Source: Bacillota bacterium (lineage in GTDB: Bacteria > Bacillota > Clostridia > Monoglobales > Firm-18). From it: a stretch of 64,000 bases of DNA. Under the pieces are notes generated by a model. It did not search any database. It worked only from the letters and a program-made list of their open reading frames with translations, and was not told the DNA's origin. A program made the translations under genes and the position numbers. Location of the stretch: assembly GCA_022706765.1 (NCBI GenBank), contig JAKJBX010000003.1, positions 74,291 to 138,290 on the forward strand, read 5' to 3'. Below are positions 1-10,740 of the stretch, piece after piece; positions within the stretch are counted from its first letter, which is position 1, and every line of letters begins with the position of its first letter.

Positions 1-1800
1 GTTTCAGGCTTTATCAAGATTGTTTTTTGGCTGATTGCGGTCGGGTATTTTTTGGTATCCGTCAGGCTTTTCGAGATGATTTCGGTCGTTGCGCTGATGG
101 TGGTTTTTTGGTTTTACAAATACAGCAAAAATCGGATTTTAGAGGATAAGATCAGCAAAAACGTGACGGACGACGTCAATGTCCTGCTGATCAATCACGT
201 CGAACGCATTGAGCGCATACAGGGCAAACTGCTGCTGAGCTGGGAAAGAACCACCGCGAGAATCCGCTATATCATATCGTGGTATTTCGGCGACATCCGT
301 GTCGTCACCGGTATCCTGCTTTTGACCGCAGTCGTGGGTTACGGCGCATACCTGACCTTTTACGACGCTTTCACCCATGCGTCGCCGTCGGGGCATGAAG
401 GCTTTCTGACGCTGATCCGGTCAAAATATATCCGGCACAGGGTGATGTTTGCGGATGGCATCTATCCGCAGGGGTTGTATATCCTGCTTGCCGTGCTGCA
501 AAAATTTGCCCAGGCGGACCATTTGTACATTGTGAATTTTGCGGGACCGCTTTTCGGGCTGGTCATCGGGCTGGGGCTGTACTTCTTTGCTTCTCGGGCG
601 GGCGCCGGCAAGGCGGGCGGCATTGTTGCGGCGACGGTTTTTTGCTGGTTCGGCAGCTTTTCCGATACAAGCGCTTTTTTGCGCACCGTATCAAGTCCCG
701 TTCAGATGTCGGTCCTGCTGGTATTCCCGACGCTGTATTTCTTTTATGCGTACATGGGTACGAGGCGCCGCAGCGATTTTTACACGGCGCTGTTCGGTGC
801 CGCCTCTGCGGGACTCGTTCACCCGATAGGCTTTGCGTTCATCACGCTCGGCGTGCTGGCGCTGCTTGTGGCATACTTCCTGCGTGACATCAAGGGCAGT
901 CTGCGTTTTATCGCAGGCTATGCGGGTGTGTTATACACCGCTGCGGCGATTGCCGCTCTGCCGGCGGCGGCAGGCGTCGTCGCCGGACTCAAATACGATA
1001 AGACCGCCGTTATGACCGCATCTGTCTTTGACGCCCTGATGCCGCCTATCCTCACCTATTATGATTTGGCGGCTGCCGGTGCGTTGGTCTTGATATTAGC
1101 GGGCGCACTGTTTTCGGTAAAAATCAAAGCAAATTTCGTCGGGAAGCTCAGCGTACTGCTGATGGGTGCGGCGGCGTTTGCCGCCTATCAATACGCTTAT
1201 ATTTTACAGAATAAATATGTTTTCGACGCCGCGCAAACGCTGTGGCTGCTGATTGTCCCGATGATATTCGCTTTCGCCGCCGGTGCGGTCTTTGACCTCC
1301 TTGCCGCCGTCACCCGCATGAAAAATATCGGTTATCTTTTTTGCATCGCCGGTCTGATCGCCTCGCTGTACCTGCTCCCGCAGGCGCCGCTTGCGGCGGA
1401 GCGCAGCTACCCCGAACAGATGGCGCGGCAATACCTGTTGATCAAAAAGGCGTTCCGTCCGACCCAGTGGATGATTGTGTCCCGTCCGGAAGGGCATATA
1501 TTCGCATACGGCTATGGCTATTATATGCAGCCGAGGGCGTTTACCGAAAAGTTTGATCCGTGGGAGGAAACGCTGAGGGAGAAGAGCGGTCTGCTTTCAA
1601 AGTCGCTCAGCACCCAGGACATCGCAGTGTTCTATCATAAAAACGACCCAACCGAGGCGTATATCAAGGCGTGGATTGACGAATACGCAACCTATCACAG
1701 CAACCTTTCCGTATTTTACGAGGACGATGAACTGATGATATGGAATATTCATCAAATACCCGGCAAGGAAGAAGCCTTTGAGGGTATGTGGCAGGAGTAG
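1..1800 (+). CDS. Polytopic membrane protein, GT-C-like (5' end outside window)
   Basis: The reading frame is open from base 1, so the first possible start in the window (TTG at 52) is probably not the true start. Alignment by eye with the next gene suggests about 55 residues lie upstream of the window. The protein has two N-terminal membrane segments, a charged cytoplasmic stretch, then about ten hydrophobic segments and a soluble C-terminal domain of about 120 residues. A non-membrane loop after the third helix carries acidic and His residues (YDAFTHASPSGHEG), an arrangement seen in GT-C type membrane glycosyltransferases. That assignment is inferred from layout only. The stop is 24 bases before the next gene, with which it appears to share ancestry and an operon. 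A role in envelope polysaccharide assembly is plausible but unproven. Confidence 0.6.
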   Translation, partial: VSGFIKIVFWLIAVGYFLVSVRLFEMISVVALMVVFWFYKYSKNRILEDKISKNVTDDVNVLLINHVERIERIQGKLLLSWERTTARIRYIISWYFGDIRVVTGILLLTAVVGYGAYLTFYDAFTHASPSGHEGFLTLIRSKYIRHRVMFADGIYPQGLYILLAVLQKFAQADHLYIVNFAGPLFGLVIGLGLYFFASRAGAGKAGGIVAATVFCWFGSFSDTSAFLRTVSSPVQMSVLLVFPTLYFFYAYMGTRRRSDFYTALFGAASAGLVHPIGFAFITLGVLALLVAYFLRDIKGSLRFIAGYAGVLYTAAAIAALPAAAGVVAGLKYDKTAVMTASVFDALMPPILTYYDLAAAGALVLILAGALFSVKIKANFVGKLSVLLMGAAAFAAYQYAYILQNKYVFDAAQTLWLLIVPMIFAFAAGAVFDLLAAVTRMKNIGYLFCIAGLIASLYLLPQAPLAAERSYPEQMARQYLLIKKAFRPTQWMIVSRPEGHIFAYGYGYYMQPRAFTEKFDPWEETLREKSGLLSKSLSTQDIAVFYHKNDPTEAYIKAWIDEYATYHSNLSVFYEDDELMIWNIHQIPGKEEAFEGMWQE

Positions 1801-1824
1801 ACTTGATTTTTTAGGAGTGAGCAT

Positions 1825-3910
1825 ATGTTTCCGATGCACGTGACAATTTTACTTTTGATCAAGGTGGTTCTTGCCTTTTATTTGCTGTATATTTATTTGC
1901 CGTCAAGGGTCATCGTCTTTGACGAGTACGGCGACACGTGGCTTGATAAGGTCTTTATTTCACTGGTTCATGCACATTTCTTCATCATCGTGATCGTGCA
2001 CCTGCTGGTCGGCGTCAGGATTTATGAAACCATTTCGCTTGCCATTGCGCTGATCGTTATTCTGATTTATATCTTTTCGACCATTATGCGCCAGCCTGCG
2101 GTCGGTGACGAGGATAAGCGGCACAAGAACATGCTCTCACTGCTGCTCGACCTGGTCGACGGGCGGTTGGGACTTTTCGGCAATCTGATGAACTCCGTCA
2201 AAAACAGCATCCGACGATTGCCCGGAAAAATTAAAAACTGGGCGACCCACCTGTTTTTGCATCCGTTTGACGGCATATTGATGCTGGGGCTGCTTGGCGT
2301 TGCCGCATTTTTACGGTTCCGTCATTCCCTGACTTACCTTTATTACGGGGCGTCCGACTGCTATGTCCACCTGGCGTGGACGAAGTACATAGGCATCAAT
2401 AACATTTACCAGGACGGCGTTTATCCGTACGGCTATGAGGCGGTCATATCAGCACTCAACAAACTGTTCTTCATCGACCCCGTGGTGCTCGTCCGTTTCT
2501 TCGGCGGGATCGGAAGCTTTATGCTGATGCTTGCGATCTACTATGTGCTCAAAAAGAACCTTGGTAAATCCTATATCGTTATTTTCGCCGCCGTATTCGC
2601 CTTTGCGTTCGGAACCGAATTCCCCAATGCGGCAAGCACCTTTTGGCGTCAGATGTCGGCGCTGCCGCAGGAGTATGCGACGATATTCATGCTGCCCGGT
2701 ATGCACTTTTTAAACGTCTTTTACAATACCGGCAGAAAGAAATACCTGCTGCTTGCCGCCGAGGTGCTGTCGGTTACGGTGTTCATCCACTTTTACGCCG
2801 CCATCTTCGTCGCCGTCGGCTATGTGCTGCTGTCGCTGTTCCACCTCAAAAAGGTGTTTTATGAAAAGAATTTCGTTTGGGTAGTCGGCGCCATGGGCGC
2901 AGGCGGCGTCATCGGCGTCCTGCCGATCGTTATTGCACTGGCTTTGGGCAAAAAGTTTCACGCCCTGTCATACAGCTATTTTACCGAAAGCGCCGTTATC
3001 GGCAAGGGGCTGGACTGGCGGAGTGAAATTTTCAGATTCACCGAAACAAATAAGCCGCTGCTGTTGCTGCTTGCCTGCGTTGCCGCCATCACACTGTTTG
3101 CGCTGATCCGGCTGGCATTCAAAAAAATCCCCCGACTATTCAGGCAGGATCAAGCTGTTTTTGGCGGTGGCGTTTTTGAGCCTGTTCTTCTACGGTCAGG
3201 TGCGTGCGGAGGACATCGGCTTTTTCACACTGATGGAGGCGTACCGCACCAGCACCTTCCTGGTCGTTGCGGTGGCTGCGCTCTATGGCATGACGGTCTG
3301 CCTGATAGACTTCACGCCGCTGCATAAGCTGATACGCTATGCCATCAAAGCAGTCGGCGCCGCATTGATTGTTGTGACCGTATTTTCGACCGTCAACGCC
3401 GGTGGGATATTTCAGCAAAAGGGCAGCAAGCTTGAATACGACGAGGCGGCGTATATCTACTATAAAATCAAGGATGAATTCCCGATACTCAACTGGACGA
3501 TCATCTCACCGGTCGAGCAGTATTCGCAGAGCATGGGCTACGGCTGGCATTACAACCTTTGGGAATTTGTTTATGACACGCAGGTTGAGCCTAAGGATGA
3601 GGTTGAATTTCCGACCGACTATGTCTTTGTCATTGTCGAAAAGCGTCCGCTCAACCAGGCAAGCGCCTATACCCTGACCGAGCCTGTTTCCCGTACGGAC
3701 GCCGCACAGCCGTTTCCGGTCATCACCGGCTCGTATGACAAGTACTATACGGTTTACAACAACCGCAGGGCCATCGAAGCCAAGGCGTATTTTTGGATGG
3801 AGGATTATATCGCCAAAAATAACCGCTTTACCACCTATTACGAATCCGATCTGATCAAGGTTTATATGCTCACACAGGACGGAAAGGAACCGCTTAATTT
3901 GGCACAGTAG
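1825..3910 (+). CDS. Paralogous polytopic membrane protein, GT-C-like, frameshifted
   Basis: ATG 1825 follows a good ribosome site (TTAGGAGTGAGCAT). Frame 1 codes for a membrane protein up to about base 3120. The matching continuation (LFLAVAFLSLFF onward) is in frame 2 and runs to 3910. The total span is 3n+1 bases, so a single extra base explains the break. The likeliest place is the run of seven A at 3121-3127 or the C run just after it. Repaired length would be about 695 residues. The protein resembles the preceding gene in its N-terminal helices (GVRIYETIS versus SVRLFEMIS), in the loop after the third helix (GASDCYVHLAW) and in the soluble C-terminus (AYFWMEDY versus AYIKAWIDEY). It is therefore a tandem duplicate. 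Function is unknown; a membrane glycosyltransferase or polymer-handling role is an inference. Confidence 0.6.
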
Positions 3911-3945
3911 CATTGATATTGAAGAGACTGGGGAGGCAAGAAAAG

Positions 3946-5790
3946 ATGAAAGAGATTATTTTTACAGCCGCGGCTTTGGCAGCAATCATCCTGCTGATGC
4001 TTATCTTGTGGATGGTGCAGAAGAAAAAACAGGAGGCGGAGACAAAGCTGCTTAAACAGATTTTGTCGTGTTGCGCAAAGTTTGAAAGCGCCTCCAAATC
4101 GATCAACGAAATCTTTTCAATCCTTTCGCAGTACGTTAAGGCGGAGGAGTATGCCTTTTATCTGATTGACAACAAGGATAAGCAGTATGTTTTAAAGGCG
4201 GTGCATTATAAAAACACCTCGGACGCCACCCTCAATTTGTCTTATTCCGGTCTTGTCCCGCACAAAAAGGTGAAGTACGCTTTCCCCGTATCGCTGGGTG
4301 CGGCGGATTTCGGAAGCGGCGTCACTGTGCGTGACGGCGATAAGATGCGCCTGATCAGCATACCGATTAAGGGCGGTAATGCTGTGGTCGAGTTGAAGGT
4401 CGGACCGAAGTATACGCTCCGCGCCGGCACGAAGGCAAAGCTTGAAGAGATTGCGCAGGAACTTGAAGTCGCCGCAAACCTCATCGTCGCCGTCGAGCGG
4501 TTTTCCAACCGCATCAAGGTGCTTGAAACCGCCAAGCAGGCGACACGCAGCGTCGCCAGCATTATCAGCGGCAACGGCGTGTTCAAGATGGCGATCAATA
4601 TGTTTGCCAAGACCATCAACGCAAAGGGCGGCTTTTTCCTGAGGGAAAGCATCGACGCCTTAGAGCTTGACGTTGAATCGGGCATGACCAAGGAAAATTC
4701 CCTGATTTTTAAATACGACGCCGACATCCACAAGTTCTTCAAGCAGATCGTCACCGCTAAGAAAATTGCTACGCTCAATAAAAACGACAGCTTGTTTGAA
4801 AACCTGCCCGTCTATTTCACCTCCGAGGGCGTTCGGCAGATCATCCTTTTTAACATGGATTTTGAGGGCAACAGCGGTATTGCGGGCTTTTGGTACGACC
4901 AGGTCTATGAGATCGACGACTATCAGACCTCCTCACTGCTGCTCATGTTCTCTAAAATATCCGATGTGTTCAAACGCTCGTTCCTGATTACCAGTCATTC
5001 GCAGGACAACATCGAAACCTTGAAGCTGATTTCCACGTTGGTTGACGATTTGAGCCCGTACACCGTCGGCTTTTCACAGCTGATGGAGTATTATGCCACC
5101 GCCATTGCGCAGGAGTTGAAGCTGCCGCAAACGGAGGTCAAAAAGATTGCGCTGGCAGCATTTTTAAACAACATCGGTATTTCGGTTTTGTCGTACGACA
5201 TCTTCCTTGCCAAAGGCAAATATATGGAGTATGACTACGAGGTCATCAAGCTGCACTCTGAGGTCGGCGCCGACATCATCGAAGCCATATACGGCGACAC
5301 CGCCATTGCCAACATGGTCAGATACCACCATGAGCGCATCGACGGGCTTGGGTATCCATACCGCATTAAGGGTGACGAGATACCGCTCGGCGCAAAAATT
5401 TTGGCGGTCGTGCAGTTTTTTGTCGCCAAAATTTCGCCCAGGAGCTTCCGTGATGCGGCGACCTTTGACGAAACCCTCGAAGCGCTGCGTCATGTTGCGG
5501 GCACGCAGCTCGACGCGGATGTCGTGGATACCTTCTTGTCGTGGATCACACGCACACGAAACGCGTTTGCGGGTGCGGACCATTCGCTCGACTATTGCTG
5601 GAATATGCGCTGCGTTTCGGACGAGATCTGCAACAAATGTCCCGCTAAGCTGAAAGTGACAAAAAGGTGCTGGGAAGAGGACGGCAACGCCTGCATGGCG
5701 CATGGCAACAAGTGCGAAACCTGCTTCATTTTCACCGAATATCAGGGCAGAAAAAAACTCGCCAGGCACAGCGAGGCAAGCCTTGTATAA
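3946..5790 (+). CDS. Membrane-anchored GAF-like/degenerate HD-GYP protein with Cys-rich tail
   Basis: ATG 3946 is chosen because GGGGAGG lies about 9 bases upstream. The 614-residue product has one N-terminal membrane helix (about 4-24), two regions that look like GAF-type sensor folds (about 40-185 and 200-350) and an HD-GYP-like domain (about 370-530). The HHExxDGxGYP segment is intact near residue 461, but the catalytic HD of the HDIGK motif is replaced by Asn-Asn (residues 408-409, NNIGIS). Phosphodiesterase activity is therefore doubtful, and a ligand-sensing role is more likely. The C-terminal ~50 residues hold many cysteines with CW pairs (CWNMRC, CWEE), like two-CW domains. It sits between the membrane paralogues and the GH114-like gene and overlaps the latter. 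I infer it regulates or scaffolds the locus. Confidence 0.72.
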   Translation: MKEIIFTAAALAAIILLMLILWMVQKKKQEAETKLLKQILSCCAKFESASKSINEIFSILSQYVKAEEYAFYLIDNKDKQYVLKAVHYKNTSDATLNLSYSGLVPHKKVKYAFPVSLGAADFGSGVTVRDGDKMRLISIPIKGGNAVVELKVGPKYTLRAGTKAKLEEIAQELEVAANLIVAVERFSNRIKVLETAKQATRSVASIISGNGVFKMAINMFAKTINAKGGFFLRESIDALELDVESGMTKENSLIFKYDADIHKFFKQIVTAKKIATLNKNDSLFENLPVYFTSEGVRQIILFNMDFEGNSGIAGFWYDQVYEIDDYQTSSLLLMFSKISDVFKRSFLITSHSQDNIETLKLISTLVDDLSPYTVGFSQLMEYYATAIAQELKLPQTEVKKIALAAFLNNIGISVLSYDIFLAKGKYMEYDYEVIKLHSEVGADIIEAIYGDTAIANMVRYHHERIDGLGYPYRIKGDEIPLGAKILAVVQFFVAKISPRSFRDAATFDETLEALRHVAGTQLDADVVDTFLSWITRTRNAFAGADHSLDYCWNMRCVSDEICNKCPAKLKVTKRCWEEDGNACMAHGNKCETCFIFTEYQGRKKLARHSEASLV

Positions 5791-6547
5791 GATTGACGCT
5801 TTGAATCACATCAAGCGCTTTGCGGTGTTCTACGGACGCCATGGAGAGCGCTGCCTTGACCGTTACGACCTCTTGATTTTAGAGCCGGCCGGGCATACAT
5901 CCGAGCAAATCGGCATATATAAAAAAGCGGGGAAGACGGTCGTCGCCTATCAGAGCGTCCTTGAAACCGGACGACACCAAGACTGTTTTGAACGCTTTGA
6001 CCCTCAGACGGACTATGTGATGTTAGACGGCAAGCCGATATACAATGCAGAATATGACACCGTATATCTTGACGTCTCAAAGCAAAAAGTCATCGACATG
6101 TTGTATGAGCAAATTTCCGGACACTTTGAAAACGGCTATGACGGCGTTTTCTTAGATACACTTGGCAACCTCGACTATCTTTATCTGGGCGATGCGGATT
6201 CGGAAAAGCTGCGCTCAGGTGTCTCGGCGCTTTTGGGGCGTGTCAAGCGCAGCTATCCCGATAAAATCATCATTCAAAACAACGGCTTTTTGCGTCTCAT
6301 TGATAATACCTGTGACAGCATCGACGCCATTTGCTTTGAAAACCCGCCGCTCGGCAGCGTTCGAAGCGTGTTATGGACGATGCGCGTTCTAAAAAAACTC
6401 CATTGTCTGATGACGGAGGATAAGCTGCTTGTGCTTGTTTTGCAGGAAAAAAGACCCAAAGCGCCGCTTTTCGAACAGTTATTGCTTAAACTGCTGCTTA
6501 AAAAATACCGGTTTTTGTACAGTCGGTCTCCGAGATTTTATAGATAG
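5783..6547 (+). CDS. GH114/TM1410-like glycoside hydrolase family protein
   Basis: The start chosen is TTG 5783, which overlaps the upstream stop codon; GAGG at 5772 is the likely ribosome site. The 254-residue product shows the beta-barrel pattern of the GH114/TM1410 family. It has an early FAVFYG strand, a YDLLILEP segment with an acidic residue at the strand end, a YDGVFLDTLGN segment and an IIQNNGF strand near the end. GH114 enzymes cleave alpha-1,4-linked galactosamine polymers, and PelA of the Pel exopolysaccharide systems carries such a domain. No signal peptide or membrane helix is visible, so the product should be cytoplasmic unless held by partner proteins. This is unusual for the family. 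Membership is well supported; the substrate is unknown. Confidence 0.7.
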   Translation: MYKIDALNHIKRFAVFYGRHGERCLDRYDLLILEPAGHTSEQIGIYKKAGKTVVAYQSVLETGRHQDCFERFDPQTDYVMLDGKPIYNAEYDTVYLDVSKQKVIDMLYEQISGHFENGYDGVFLDTLGNLDYLYLGDADSEKLRSGVSALLGRVKRSYPDKIIIQNNGFLRLIDNTCDSIDAICFENPPLGSVRSVLWTMRVLKKLHCLMTEDKLLVLVLQEKRPKAPLFEQLLLKLLLKKYRFLYSRSPRFYR

Positions 6548-6562
6548 AGGTTGTGGAGGAAC

Positions 6563-7558
6563 TTGTCAGGTTTAAAACGTGTCATCACATTTCCTTTTCG
6601 CAGTAAAAAACGTACGGTGTTTACCATTGTTATGCTTATTTTTCTTGTCGCACAATACCTTTTATTTACCAAGGGAGTTGTAAAGCCGTTTTACTTTACA
6701 CTTTCGGTTAAGCCGAGCGCTCTTGTGCTGATGAAAAACGAGGAGGTCAAAATACGGCTCGGCGGAGTTTTCCCGTTTTACGCCAAGTATGACGCGGAGT
6801 TTGTCAGCAGCAACGAAGCGGTGATAAGGGTCTCGGATGGCAATATTGTCGGCGTTTCGCAAGGGTCGGCTGTGCTGACCGTCAGCGCCGGCGGCAAAAC
6901 CGCAACCGCCGATGTGACCGTAACCTCGACCGGTATCATCCATTTTGATAAGGGCAAATACATTGGTGAACTGAGCGGTTCAAAGCGCAGCGGCTACGGC
7001 ACGATGTATTACCAAAACGGCGACATTTATGAAGGATATTGGAAAGACGATGCCATCAACGGCTTCGGAAGCATGACCTGGACGAGCAAAAACAGATATG
7101 TTGGCGGCTGGAAGAACGAACAGTTTGACGGCTTCGGTACAATGGAATATAAGGGTCAGTACGTCTATACGGGCGGCTTTACAAACGGCGGATTTGACGG
7201 CTACGGCATCATCTCGTGGAAACACGGCGACACCTACACGGGCGGCTTTGCGGATGGGAACCTCAGCGGATACGGCGTCTTCAAATGGAAGAGCGGCGAC
7301 CAATATTCCGGCATGTGGAAGACCGGCAGCCGTGACGGCTACGGGGAGTTTACCTTTAACCGCAACCGCAGCAGGTATGCCGGCGACTGGGTCAATAATC
7401 TACGGGAGGGCTATGGCATCGAATATACGGGCGACCGCATCTATTACAGCGGTCAATGGAAGAACAACCTTTACGACGGTTTCGGCAGGCTGTATAAAAA
7501 CGCCGATACCGTTGAGTTTGAGGGCGAATTTAAGGAAAACAACCCGGTTTACCATTAA
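6563..7558 (+). CDS. Membrane-anchored Ig-like (BIG2) and MORN-repeat protein
   Basis: TTG 6563 is preferred over TTG 6551 because GGAGGA lies just upstream, though the spacing is short. The product (331 residues) has a basic N-terminus, one membrane helix (about 20-40), a bacterial Ig-like fold (about 45-130, ending in an LTVSAGGKTATADVTV-type strand) and then eight to nine MORN repeats of 22-23 residues with the recurring pattern GYGxxxxxxGDxYxGxW. MORN repeats form elongated beta sheets that bind lipids or proteins. With the helix at the N-terminus the repeats would lie outside the cell. It ends the 5' cluster and is followed by a terminator. Role unknown; a structural partner of the presumed polymer system is an inference. 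Confidence 0.75.
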   Translation: MSGLKRVITFPFRSKKRTVFTIVMLIFLVAQYLLFTKGVVKPFYFTLSVKPSALVLMKNEEVKIRLGGVFPFYAKYDAEFVSSNEAVIRVSDGNIVGVSQGSAVLTVSAGGKTATADVTVTSTGIIHFDKGKYIGELSGSKRSGYGTMYYQNGDIYEGYWKDDAINGFGSMTWTSKNRYVGGWKNEQFDGFGTMEYKGQYVYTGGFTNGGFDGYGIISWKHGDTYTGGFADGNLSGYGVFKWKSGDQYSGMWKTGSRDGYGEFTFNRNRSRYAGDWVNNLREGYGIEYTGDRIYYSGQWKNNLYDGFGRLYKNADTVEFEGEFKENNPVYH

Positions 7559-7580
7559 TGGAACGGCTCGAAAATTGCTG

Positions 7581-8087: not shown

Positions 8088-10740
8088 ATGAAACAGTATT
8101 TCAATTGGACAGTTGCAAAAACTGCGCAGGATTTGGAGGTTGATCTTTCCTCCGGACTTTCGTCGGCGGAGGTATCGGCACGAAGCCTGGCGCACGGTCC
8201 GAACCGCTTGGAGGGCGGCAAAGAAAAATCCCTTTTCCAAATGGCTTTGGAGCAATTAAAGGACTTTCTTGTGCTCATTCTGATGGCAGCGGCGGTGATT
8301 TCGATCTTCCTGGGCGAAGCTTTGGAAGGCATTGTTATCCTTGCCATCGTTGTGCTCAATACGATTTTGGGCGTTTACCAGGAAAACAAAGCAAGTAATG
8401 CGCTAAAAGCGCTAAAAGAAATGGCAAGCCCCCACGCCAAGGTACTGCGTAACGGTCAGGTCATTGAAATTGCGTCAAGCGAAGTGGTTCCTGGCGACGT
8501 TGTGATCCTCGAAGCCGGTGATTACATACCTGCCGACCTGCGCTTGGTTGAAACCATCAACCTCAAAATTGACGAGGCGGCGCTGACGGGCGAATCCGTG
8601 CCGGTCGAAAAGGACGCTTCCGCCGAACTGGCGGAGGATGCCAGCCTTGGCGACCGCATCAACTCTGCCTACATGGGAACCGTCATTACTTACGGTCGGG
8701 GCAGGGGTATCATTACCGACATCGGTATGCAGACACAGATGGGTAAAATTGCGGGTATGCTGAGCGATAGCGACGACGAGGACACCCCGCTTCAAAAAAA
8801 GCTGGATAGCCTCGGCAAGCTGCTGGGCATTGTCTGCCTTGCGATCTGCGGCGTTATCTTCCTGCTCGGGCTTTTGCGCGGCATGAAGGTTTTCGATATC
8901 TTTATGACCTCCGTTTCTTTGGCGGTGGCGGCAATCCCCGAGGGGCTTACGGTCGTCGTTACGGTCATTCTTGCCATGGGTATGCAAAAAGATGGTCAAG
9001 TGCAATGCAATCATTAAGCGCCTCAGCGCCGTTGAAACGCTGGGCAGCACGACGGTCATCTGCTCGGATAAAACAGGTACGCTTACACAGAACAAGATGA
9101 CCATACAGCGCATTTTTAACGGCAAGGAATTGTTCGACGTCACCGGTACGGGATACAGCCCCGTCGGCGAAATCATCGGCACATCGGGCGGCAAAGGCGC
9201 ACAGGCAGTCAACAAGGTTTTGGCGTGTACGCTGCTTTGTAACGATGCTATCTATGACCCGGGAAACCGGTCGATCGTCGGCGACCCGACCGAGGGTGCG
9301 ATGGTGGTTTTAGCGCATAAGGCGGGTATGGTGAAAACCGACTGGGATAAAAAGTATCCGAGGTTGCAGGAGATCCCGTTCGACTCTCACCGTAAGCTGA
9401 TGTCGACTTTCCACGGCATTGACGGCAAAATCGTGATGTATGTCAAAGGCGCTCCCGACGAGCTGCTCAAACGTTGCGTGTCGGTTGAAATTGACGGCAG
9501 CGTGCAACCGCTCGACGATGCAAAGCATCAGGAAATTCTGGGCGTCAACCACAAGTTCGCCGAATCGGCGCTGCGTGTTATCGGCGCGGCATACCGCAAT
9601 GTCGATGCGATCGACACATCGTTTGAAGCCGAGAACGACCTGACATTTGTCGGGCTTGTCGGTATGATCGACCCGCCGAGAGAGGAAGCAAAGGCGGCGA
9701 TCGATGTCTGCAAAAAGGCGGGCATACAGGTCAAGATGATCACGGGTGACCACAAAATCACCGCAACTGCCATAGGCCGTCAGTTGGGTATCGTCGGCGA
9801 CGACGCTGTCGCCATTGAGGGTCGTGAAATTTCCGAAATGACCGATGAGCAGCTTCAGGCGTGCGTCAAGACGACCAACGTCTTTGCCCGTGTGTCTCCC
9901 GAGCATAAGGTACGCCTGGTCGACGCCGTCAAGGCAAACGGCGACATCGCCGCCATGACTGGCGACGGCGTTAACGACGCACCCTCGCTCAAACACGCCG
10001 ATATCGGCGTTGCGATGGGCATCACTGGCACGGATGTGTCGAAGGAAGCCGCCGATATGATCTTGACGGACGACAACTTCGCCAGCATCGTCAGTGCGGT
10101 GTCCGAGGGACGTACCATATACAGCAATATCCGAAAAGTCGTCGGCTTTTTGCTGTCTTGCAACATCGGCGAGATCCTGGTCATACTGATCGCCATGCTG
10201 TCCGGGTTGAAAGAAGTGTTGCTGCCCATTCAGCTTTTGTCGATCAACCTCATCACAGATGCGTTTCCTGCATTTGCGCTGGGTATGGAAAAGGCGGAAC
10301 AGGGTGTTATGGAAAAGAAACCGAGAGACCCCTCCGAACCAATCGTCGACAAAAAGATGGGTATCGCAGTCAGCATACAGAGCATCGCCCTTGCACTGGG
10401 TACGCTCGGCTCCTACCTGTACGCTTTATATGTACACGGCGATGAAGAAACCGCCCGTACAGCCTGCTTCTTTACCATTGTTCTCGGCGAGCTGCTTCGC
10501 GCCTATTCCGCACGTTCAGAAAAACTTTCAGTCTTTAAGATGCGCTTCTTTGAAAACGGTTACCTCAACAAGTGCGTGCTTGCATCTATGGCATTTCTGT
10601 TTGCGAGTATCTACGTTCCGGCGCTCAACCCGATCTTCGGGACGATGCCGCTTCTGTTCGACGAGATGATCGTTGCGCTGCTTTTGGCGTTTATACCGAT
10701 GCTCGGCGGCGAACTGGCAAAGCGTGTTACCGGCAAGTAA
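8088..10740 (+). CDS. P-type Ca2+-transporting ATPase (type II), frameshifted
   Basis: ATG 8088 follows AAAGAGGTGCGT. The product would be about 883 residues, normal for type II calcium pumps that export or sequester Ca2+ at the cost of ATP. Visible motifs are the actuator TGES, the membrane PEGL, the phosphorylation site DKTGTLTQNK and the hinge GDGVNDAP. Frame 1 runs to a stop at 9015-9017, while DKTGT and everything after lie in frame 2. The total span is 3n+1 bases. Removing one A from the run of five at 8986-8990 restores GMQKMVKCNAIIKRLSAVE without any other change. Either this is a single-base insertion artefact or a recent inactivation; both halves otherwise look intact. It forms a single-gene unit with its own promoter and terminator. 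Confidence 0.9.

Follow-up and report, generated by a model that had tools for sequence, protein, structure and literature searches.

A conserved Pel-related locus of a new type in Bacillota, encoding PelF, GT-C-like membrane proteins and a degenerate HD-GYP protein

Introduction

Does the group of five genes at the start of the 64,000-nucleotide stretch of Bacillota DNA analyzed here (the window) belong to a Pel system, and if so, to which kind? Pel is a major polymer in the biofilms of Pseudomonas and of certain Gram-positive bacteria, and canonical Pel needs a deacetylase. The first-pass annotation, made from the letters of the window, had proposed a Pel-related but distinct envelope-polymer locus that genes upstream might complete. 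For Gram-positive bacteria, the parts of the published descriptions considered here present Pel loci with a pelDEA_DAFG core and with hydrolase and galE accessories, mention loci in which only pelF and pelG were identified, and name neither GT-C proteins nor an HD-GYP receptor (PMC7112168, PMC7112194). A search of the open-licence literature likewise found no description of the gene set reported below or of degenerate HD-GYP receptors.

Results

Extent and gene content of the locus

All five linked genes proposed for the window were present as open reading frames (ORFs) on the + strand, and were found to form the 3' part of a 13-gene cluster in a 1.63-Mb draft genome that is 82% complete. The first gene of the cluster lies about 9.5 kb upstream of the window, and upstream coordinates are given here in L004, position 10001 of which is window position 1. 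The eight cluster genes directly before MEM1, all on the same strand as MEM1, encode in order an EAL protein, a weak-SLH/MORN protein, a GT2 glycosyltransferase, a DUF2304-type membrane protein, PelF, two coiled-coil proteins and a PelG-like membrane protein. They are followed by the membrane proteins MEM1 and MEM2, a GAF/HD-GYP protein, a glycoside hydrolase and a MORN protein. The upstream extension supplied genes of the kind that the first-pass annotation had suggested looking for there, the PelF glycosyltransferase and a PelG-like exporter with a predicted MOP fold. Its statement that no PelF, PelG or PelD was visible held for the window, and no PelD was found, but PelF and the PelG-like protein are both present upstream.

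The end of the locus was placed at 7558 because the genes past 8 kb, a P-type ATPase and a DXP synthase as named from their translations, are unrelated. The calcium-type ATPase gene is itself broken into overlapping ORFs (8088-9017 and 8971-10740), so that the assembly probably has another frameshift besides the one in MEM2. A little further upstream of the locus lies a gene named galE from its sequence. A LytTR response regulator and a GHKL histidine kinase (L002 7922-9436) are encoded directly upstream of the locus, and a similar regulator occupies the equivalent place in G002, a genome from a different genus of the same family.

PelF and the PelG-like exporter

The protein encoded at L004 4876-6618 matched NF038011, the NCBIfam PelF equivalog, with 152.4 bits (cut-off 100) and PF11997 with 132.5 bits, carries TPR_8 above cut-off at its C-terminus, and is the sole DUF3492/PelF-type protein of the genome. 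No separate PelE-like ORF was noticed at the locus. Phylogenetically, the PelF proteins of new-type loci were separated from those of canonical loci with 100/100 support by a long branch, in an unrooted tree with no outgroup; distant GT4 outgroups gave very long branches and were left out of the final tree.

The PelG-like membrane protein (535 aa, L004 8246-9853) was harder to place. The Pfam PelG model PF16933 had no match in the source genome, even at E 10. Structure models were needed for this protein and for MEM1 because PDB sequence searches with their profiles gave no useful match. For an AlphaFold model of a Paenibacillus homologue (pLDDT 57.5, pTM 0.50), the first 27 Foldseek rows were all of MATE, WzxE or MurJ type, and the first 47 VIA rows were again all MATE/WzxE/MurJ (Z 9.2-15.0), with the next unrelated row at 8.3. 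PelG is assigned to the MOP superfamily, and the predicted fold of the PelG-like protein, from this low-confidence model, is likewise the MOP fold. In profile-profile comparison it aligned with PelG colinearly over 395 columns to the C-terminus, weakly (probability 12%, E 0.0023); among the controls MurJ scored worse, and one short, spurious alignment of 56 columns reached E 0.0042. One homologue, in genome G340, narrowly passes the Pfam PelG cut-off of 29 with 32 bits in two colinear pieces. We therefore name the exporter PelG-like, not PelG, and regard it as apparently very divergent, and it is on account of this divergence that standard Pel models mostly miss the new locus.

GT-C-like membrane paralogues and the genes for a putative lipid-linked sugar

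MEM1 (641 aa, window positions 1-1800, with its start 126 bases before the window) and MEM2 (1825-3910) had been described as two GT-C-like membrane paralogues, and their families are true paralogues by hhalign (E 4.3e-95 over 645 columns). The MEM proteins had no sequence match among the Pfam family models or the solved GT-C structures. The AlphaFold model of MEM1, with a pLDDT of 50.4, was read for fold class only, and places the protein in the GT-C fold that the first-pass annotation had suggested checking by structure prediction. The first 10 Foldseek rows were all STT3/DPY19 with probability 1.00, and the first 45 VIA-align rows were all GT-C (Z 8.4-18.4, next unrelated row 7.3), the closest folds being oligosaccharyltransferases with Z up to 18.4. 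These alignments covered residues 97-486, with an rmsd mostly of 4.4-5.8 over about 300-400 residues. Additionally, the first long extracytoplasmic loop of the MEM family has a conserved acidic residue (Asp in 15 of 17 members), a feature that GT-C enzymes also show. MEM2 is regarded as GT-C-like from its homology to the MEM1 family.

MEM2 is split into overlapping ORFs, 1825-3327 and 3161-3910, and a one-base frameshift is indicated because the G002 homologue is a single intact ORF of 701 aa. The poly-A/poly-C homopolymers at 3121-3133 of this draft assembly are the most likely site, and the frameshift may be either a sequencing error or real decay.

Lipid-linked sugars are the substrates of GT-C enzymes. 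The GT2 of the locus (L004 3761-4477), whose gene precedes that of the 121-aa DUF2304-type membrane protein (L004 4500-4865), matched AglJ (E 9e-24) and the polyprenyl-phospho-GalNAc synthase PpgS (E 4.5e-22), both under the curated cut-offs. A decoration step is proposed below because of this resemblance to polyprenyl-phosphate-sugar synthases, combined with the substrate preference of GT-C enzymes.

A degenerate HD-GYP protein in the place of PelD

The protein encoded at 3913-5790 consists of an N-terminal hydrophobic (TM) segment, two GAF domains, an HD-GYP domain (HD_5, E 1.4e-27) and a Cys-rich tail. The GAF-like part claimed for it stood in two homologues, in which GAF domains were above cut-off at the equivalent places, but the window's own protein gave no Pfam GAF match. 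The tail bears a conserved Cys-rich pattern, CWxMxC...CPA...CWE...C...C..C, which is possibly a metal or redox sensing element.

The degeneracy of the HD-GYP domain, also claimed earlier, was borne out at the level of single residues. Like the HD-GYP phosphodiesterases PmGH, V-cGAP3 and RpfG, the window protein has an HD_5 domain and the HHExxDGxGYP motif, but unlike these it has lost most metal ligands and the catalytic Lys, and so lacks the full set of eight metal ligands and catalytic Lys of such an enzyme. By motif alignment against the PmGH residues of PMC4159591, the equivalents of H189, H221, D222, D305, D308 and K225 are all replaced, and those of H250, H276 and H277, the HHE motif and the GYP loop are kept. 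In PmGH, changes to Ala at H189, H221, D222 and K225 essentially abolished activity (PMC4159591). The position of K225, the catalytic Lys, is hydrophobic in all nine aligned HD-GYP members, including those that keep the HD pair. The protein is thus probably enzymatically dead.

The Pfam PelD model (PF16963) had no match in the source genome and matched nowhere in the control set either, and no PelD-like ORF was noticed at the locus. PelD itself consists of GAF and a degenerate GGDEF domain. At this locus, the combination of GAF and degenerate HD-GYP appears to stand in its place, which makes the protein a candidate for the c-di-GMP receptor function of PelD. The nucleotide is very likely made in this organism, since the genome encodes at least seven full GGDEF domains.

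The hydrolase and the accessory proteins

The hydrolase gene runs to 6547 from an approximate start at 5792; its ORF is open from 5702, which would overlap the HD-GYP gene, and homology begins near 5800. The GH114-like assignment was sustained by PF03537 (31.1 bits, cut-off 27), and the best PDB match of this GH114/GH166-type enzyme was the hydrolase domain of Pseudomonas PelA (5tcb, E 1.8e-10), with entries for GH114 and TM1410 ranking lower. Asp152 and Glu213, numbered on the 281-aa ORF, are invariant in eight homologues. In PelA, D160 and E218 have been mutated to inactivate the hydrolase (PMC12022489). In direct alignment, the stretch around the Asp corresponds to FLDTLD in PelA, and Glu213 is the presumed equivalent of the PelA Glu. 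Judged by these matches, the enzyme is a predicted relative of the PelA hydrolase with the catalytic Asp/Glu present.

A PelA-type deacetylase is absent from the locus and from its G002 counterpart, and the two polysaccharide deacetylases found elsewhere in the source genome are unlinked to the locus. The related loci L009, L010, L011 and L012 and those of genomes G360, G340, G316, G267 and G427 do include a DUF3473-type deacetylase, in many cases accompanied by an ATP-grasp protein and a flippase of MurJ type.

The last gene (6551-7558) encodes a membrane-anchored protein that had been described as an Ig/MORN scaffold. Its MORN part was clear (PF02493, 80.6 bits in six stretches, at least six repeats), but the Ig-like part gave a sub-threshold match only. 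A homologue with 48% identity sits at the same position in G002. MORN proteins were considered as a core part and rejected, being found at three of 13 loci, and are treated as a local accessory. The weak-SLH/MORN protein of this locus is encoded at L004 2368-3747.

The EAL protein, which has a partial GGDEF domain and a DivIVA-like coiled coil (L004 537-2432), and both coiled-coil proteins (143 aa, L004 6719-7150; 357 aa, L004 7160-8233) start with a DivIVA-like FG(Y/L)xxxxV motif, which suggests a shared membrane-targeting module. The EAL protein has an N-terminal module in common with the family of the 357-aa protein (37% over 158 residues), and the DivIVA model matched the G360 homologue with 39.2 bits (cut-off 28) and other members under cut-off. 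A role for the coiled coils in placing the polysaccharide machine on the membrane is a sensible guess and no more.

Conservation and genome distribution

The first-pass annotation had proposed conservation of gene order as a check, and the order is indeed kept: G002 has all 13 genes in the same order, with identities of 81% for PelF, 79% for the PelG-like protein, 68% for the HD-GYP protein, 45% for MEM1 and 38% for the hydrolase. A scan of genome collections identified PelG-like homologues with 46-51% identity in Paenibacillus filicis, P. alginolyticus, a Bacillota MAG and an uncultured Clostridia MAG, each of them adjoining PelF and a MEM-family protein. Confinement of the locus to close relatives was rejected through these distant carriers.

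By profile search the PelG-like protein was present in 8 of 398 genomes of the phylum, a ninth match being a weak 92-residue piece. Long, strong MEM matches occurred in exactly these eight genomes and in none of the 390 others, besides five weak, short pieces. The chance of such co-occurrence is about 7e-17 if genomes are independent, and related genomes are not entirely so. Chance was excluded on the grounds of full synteny in another genus together with the identical genome distribution of the two families.

The core was present at 13 loci, from Paenibacillus to deep Bacillota, with counts that reflect imperfect ORF picking in high-GC genomes. MEM proteins were found at all 13 loci (at least two at 10), PelF at 12, and the HD-GYP protein at 12, once as a fragment and once in a different build. 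The hydrolase was found at nine loci, always adjoining the HD-GYP gene, and the GT2 at 11, weakly in four. The DUF3473-type deacetylase and the ATP-grasp protein were each present at nine of the 13 and the MurJ-type flippase at seven.

Comparison with known loci

Among the 398 genomes, 12 had Pfam PelG (PF16933) above cut-off, one of which, G340, carries the new locus. Ten of the other loci were examined and PelF was found in nine. These nine are canonical: PelF and PelG come after large genes, and MEM, HD-GYP and coiled-coil proteins are missing.

Compared with the pelDEA_DAFG locus of Bacillus cereus ATCC 10987, as far as the considered part of its description extends (PMC7112168), the new locus is alike in its PelF equivalog with an adjacent MOP-fold PelG-like exporter, in having a PelA-type hydrolase and galE as neighbours, and in a membrane protein that combines GAF with the degenerate domain of a c-di-GMP enzyme. 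It differs in that PelD with its degenerate GGDEF domain, a separate PelE and a PelA-type deacetylase were not seen, and in adding at least two GT-C proteins, GT2/DUF2304, DivIVA-like coiled coils and the degenerate HD-GYP protein. Additionally, its PelF falls in a separate clade and its PelG-like protein escapes the Pfam PelG model. With pelABCDEFG of Pseudomonas aeruginosa it has in common PelF, the PelA hydrolase domain and, putatively, PelG-type export and c-di-GMP-type control, but not the outer-membrane PelB/PelC, PelD or the PelA deacetylase domain. MEM1 resembles the GT-C enzymes (STT3/PglB/AglB, DPY19, PMT, ArnT, Emb) in fold and in the acidic residue of the first loop, but by sequence it matched neither a GT-C protein of solved structure nor a Pfam family.

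Discussion

Altogether, homology, folds from low-confidence models, synteny and co-occurrence show that the locus is real and conserved, and that it is a new type of Pel-related locus, in which PelF, a PelG-like protein, a PelA-type hydrolase, GT-C proteins and a degenerate HD-GYP protein occur together. The outline given by the first-pass annotation, of a distinct envelope-polymer locus related to Pel and completed by upstream genes, is supported. As to its function, we rather favor a c-di-GMP-gated, Pel-like exopolysaccharide machine in which the pseudo-HD-GYP protein replaces PelD and the GT-C enzymes decorate or extend the polymer. We infer all of the activities that follow, and the order in which they would act. 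The nearby GalE would provide a UDP-GalNAc/UDP-Gal-type sugar, which PelF, a cytoplasmic GT4 whose C-terminal TPR may stand in for PelE, would polymerize, and the PelG-like MOP-fold protein would export the chain through the membrane. The GAF-GAF-HD-GYP protein in the membrane would bind c-di-GMP without being able to hydrolyse it and, as PelD does elsewhere, switch the PelF/PelG-like synthase on, at c-di-GMP levels set by the neighbouring EAL protein and the GGDEF enzymes of the genome. The GT2, of polyprenyl-phosphate-sugar-synthase type, and DUF2304 would make a lipid-linked sugar that MEM1/MEM2 would add to the polymer at the outer face. The PelA-like hydrolase would trim the polymer, the DivIVA-like coiled coils would position the complex at the membrane, and polymer would be held at the surface by the MORN proteins. 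The polymer could be a different glycan than Pel.

The same genes could also serve cell-wall or S-layer glycosylation, with the PelF-like GT4, GT2/DUF2304 and GT-C proteins building a teichoic-acid-like or protein-linked glycan, not a free exopolysaccharide, which the hydrolase and MORN proteins would remodel. Glycosylation of walls and proteins typically involves GT-C proteins and polyprenyl-phosphate-sugar synthases. The folds nearest to MEM1 are those of oligosaccharyltransferases, the GT2 matches the S-layer glycosylation enzyme AglJ, many relatives have a MurJ-type flippase, and SLH was weakly matched by one of the upstream proteins. Roseburia pel genes are, moreover, reported within capsule or teichoic-like clusters in the part of PMC7112168 considered. 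However, we noticed neither Wzy nor a ligase, a LytR-CpsA-Psr protein or an acceptor protein at the locus, and the joint travel of PelF, the PelG-like protein, a PelA-type hydrolase and a c-di-GMP-type receptor fits Pel-type secretion better, so that we consider wall or S-layer glycosylation unlikely, while giving it appreciable weight.

Considerably less probable is that the HD-GYP protein of the same exopolysaccharide locus acts not as a receptor but as a phosphodiesterase, active or residual, by which c-di-GMP is lowered locally. Several distant members (G062, G360, G340, G267 and G363) do retain the HD pair together with most of the metal ligands, but the window protein has replacements at all six positions listed above, four of them those at which Ala essentially abolished PmGH activity (PMC4159591), and even the members that keep the HD pair have a hydrophobic residue at K225. 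We would be surprised if the locus were a decayed, non-functional pel remnant in a reduced uncultured genome: the frameshift in MEM2 and the split ATPase gene downstream would suit decay, but the rest of the genes are intact and have conserved counterparts in G002 (38-81% identity), and the MEM2 break within a homopolymer of a draft genome is likely a sequencing error.

Within the favored reading of a c-di-GMP-gated exopolysaccharide machine, a bolder proposal, which we hold tentatively and at somewhat less than even confidence, is that these loci form a separate, second Firmicutes class of Pel type. Here a pseudo-HD-GYP protein that binds c-di-GMP would gate a PelF/PelG-like synthase, which would be coupled to outer-face GT-C enzymes using lipid-linked sugars, yielding a branched or hybrid polymer that depends on both a synthase and a lipid carrier. 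The known Gram-positive Pel loci share one plan, and the locus described here represents a second plan, carried by about 2% of the sampled genomes of the phylum and by at least seven families in the sample. This second plan predicts that a dead HD-GYP enzyme can replace PelD as a c-di-GMP switch, that GT-C enzymes can modify a polymer made by a synthase, and that DivIVA-like proteins can place a polysaccharide synthase.
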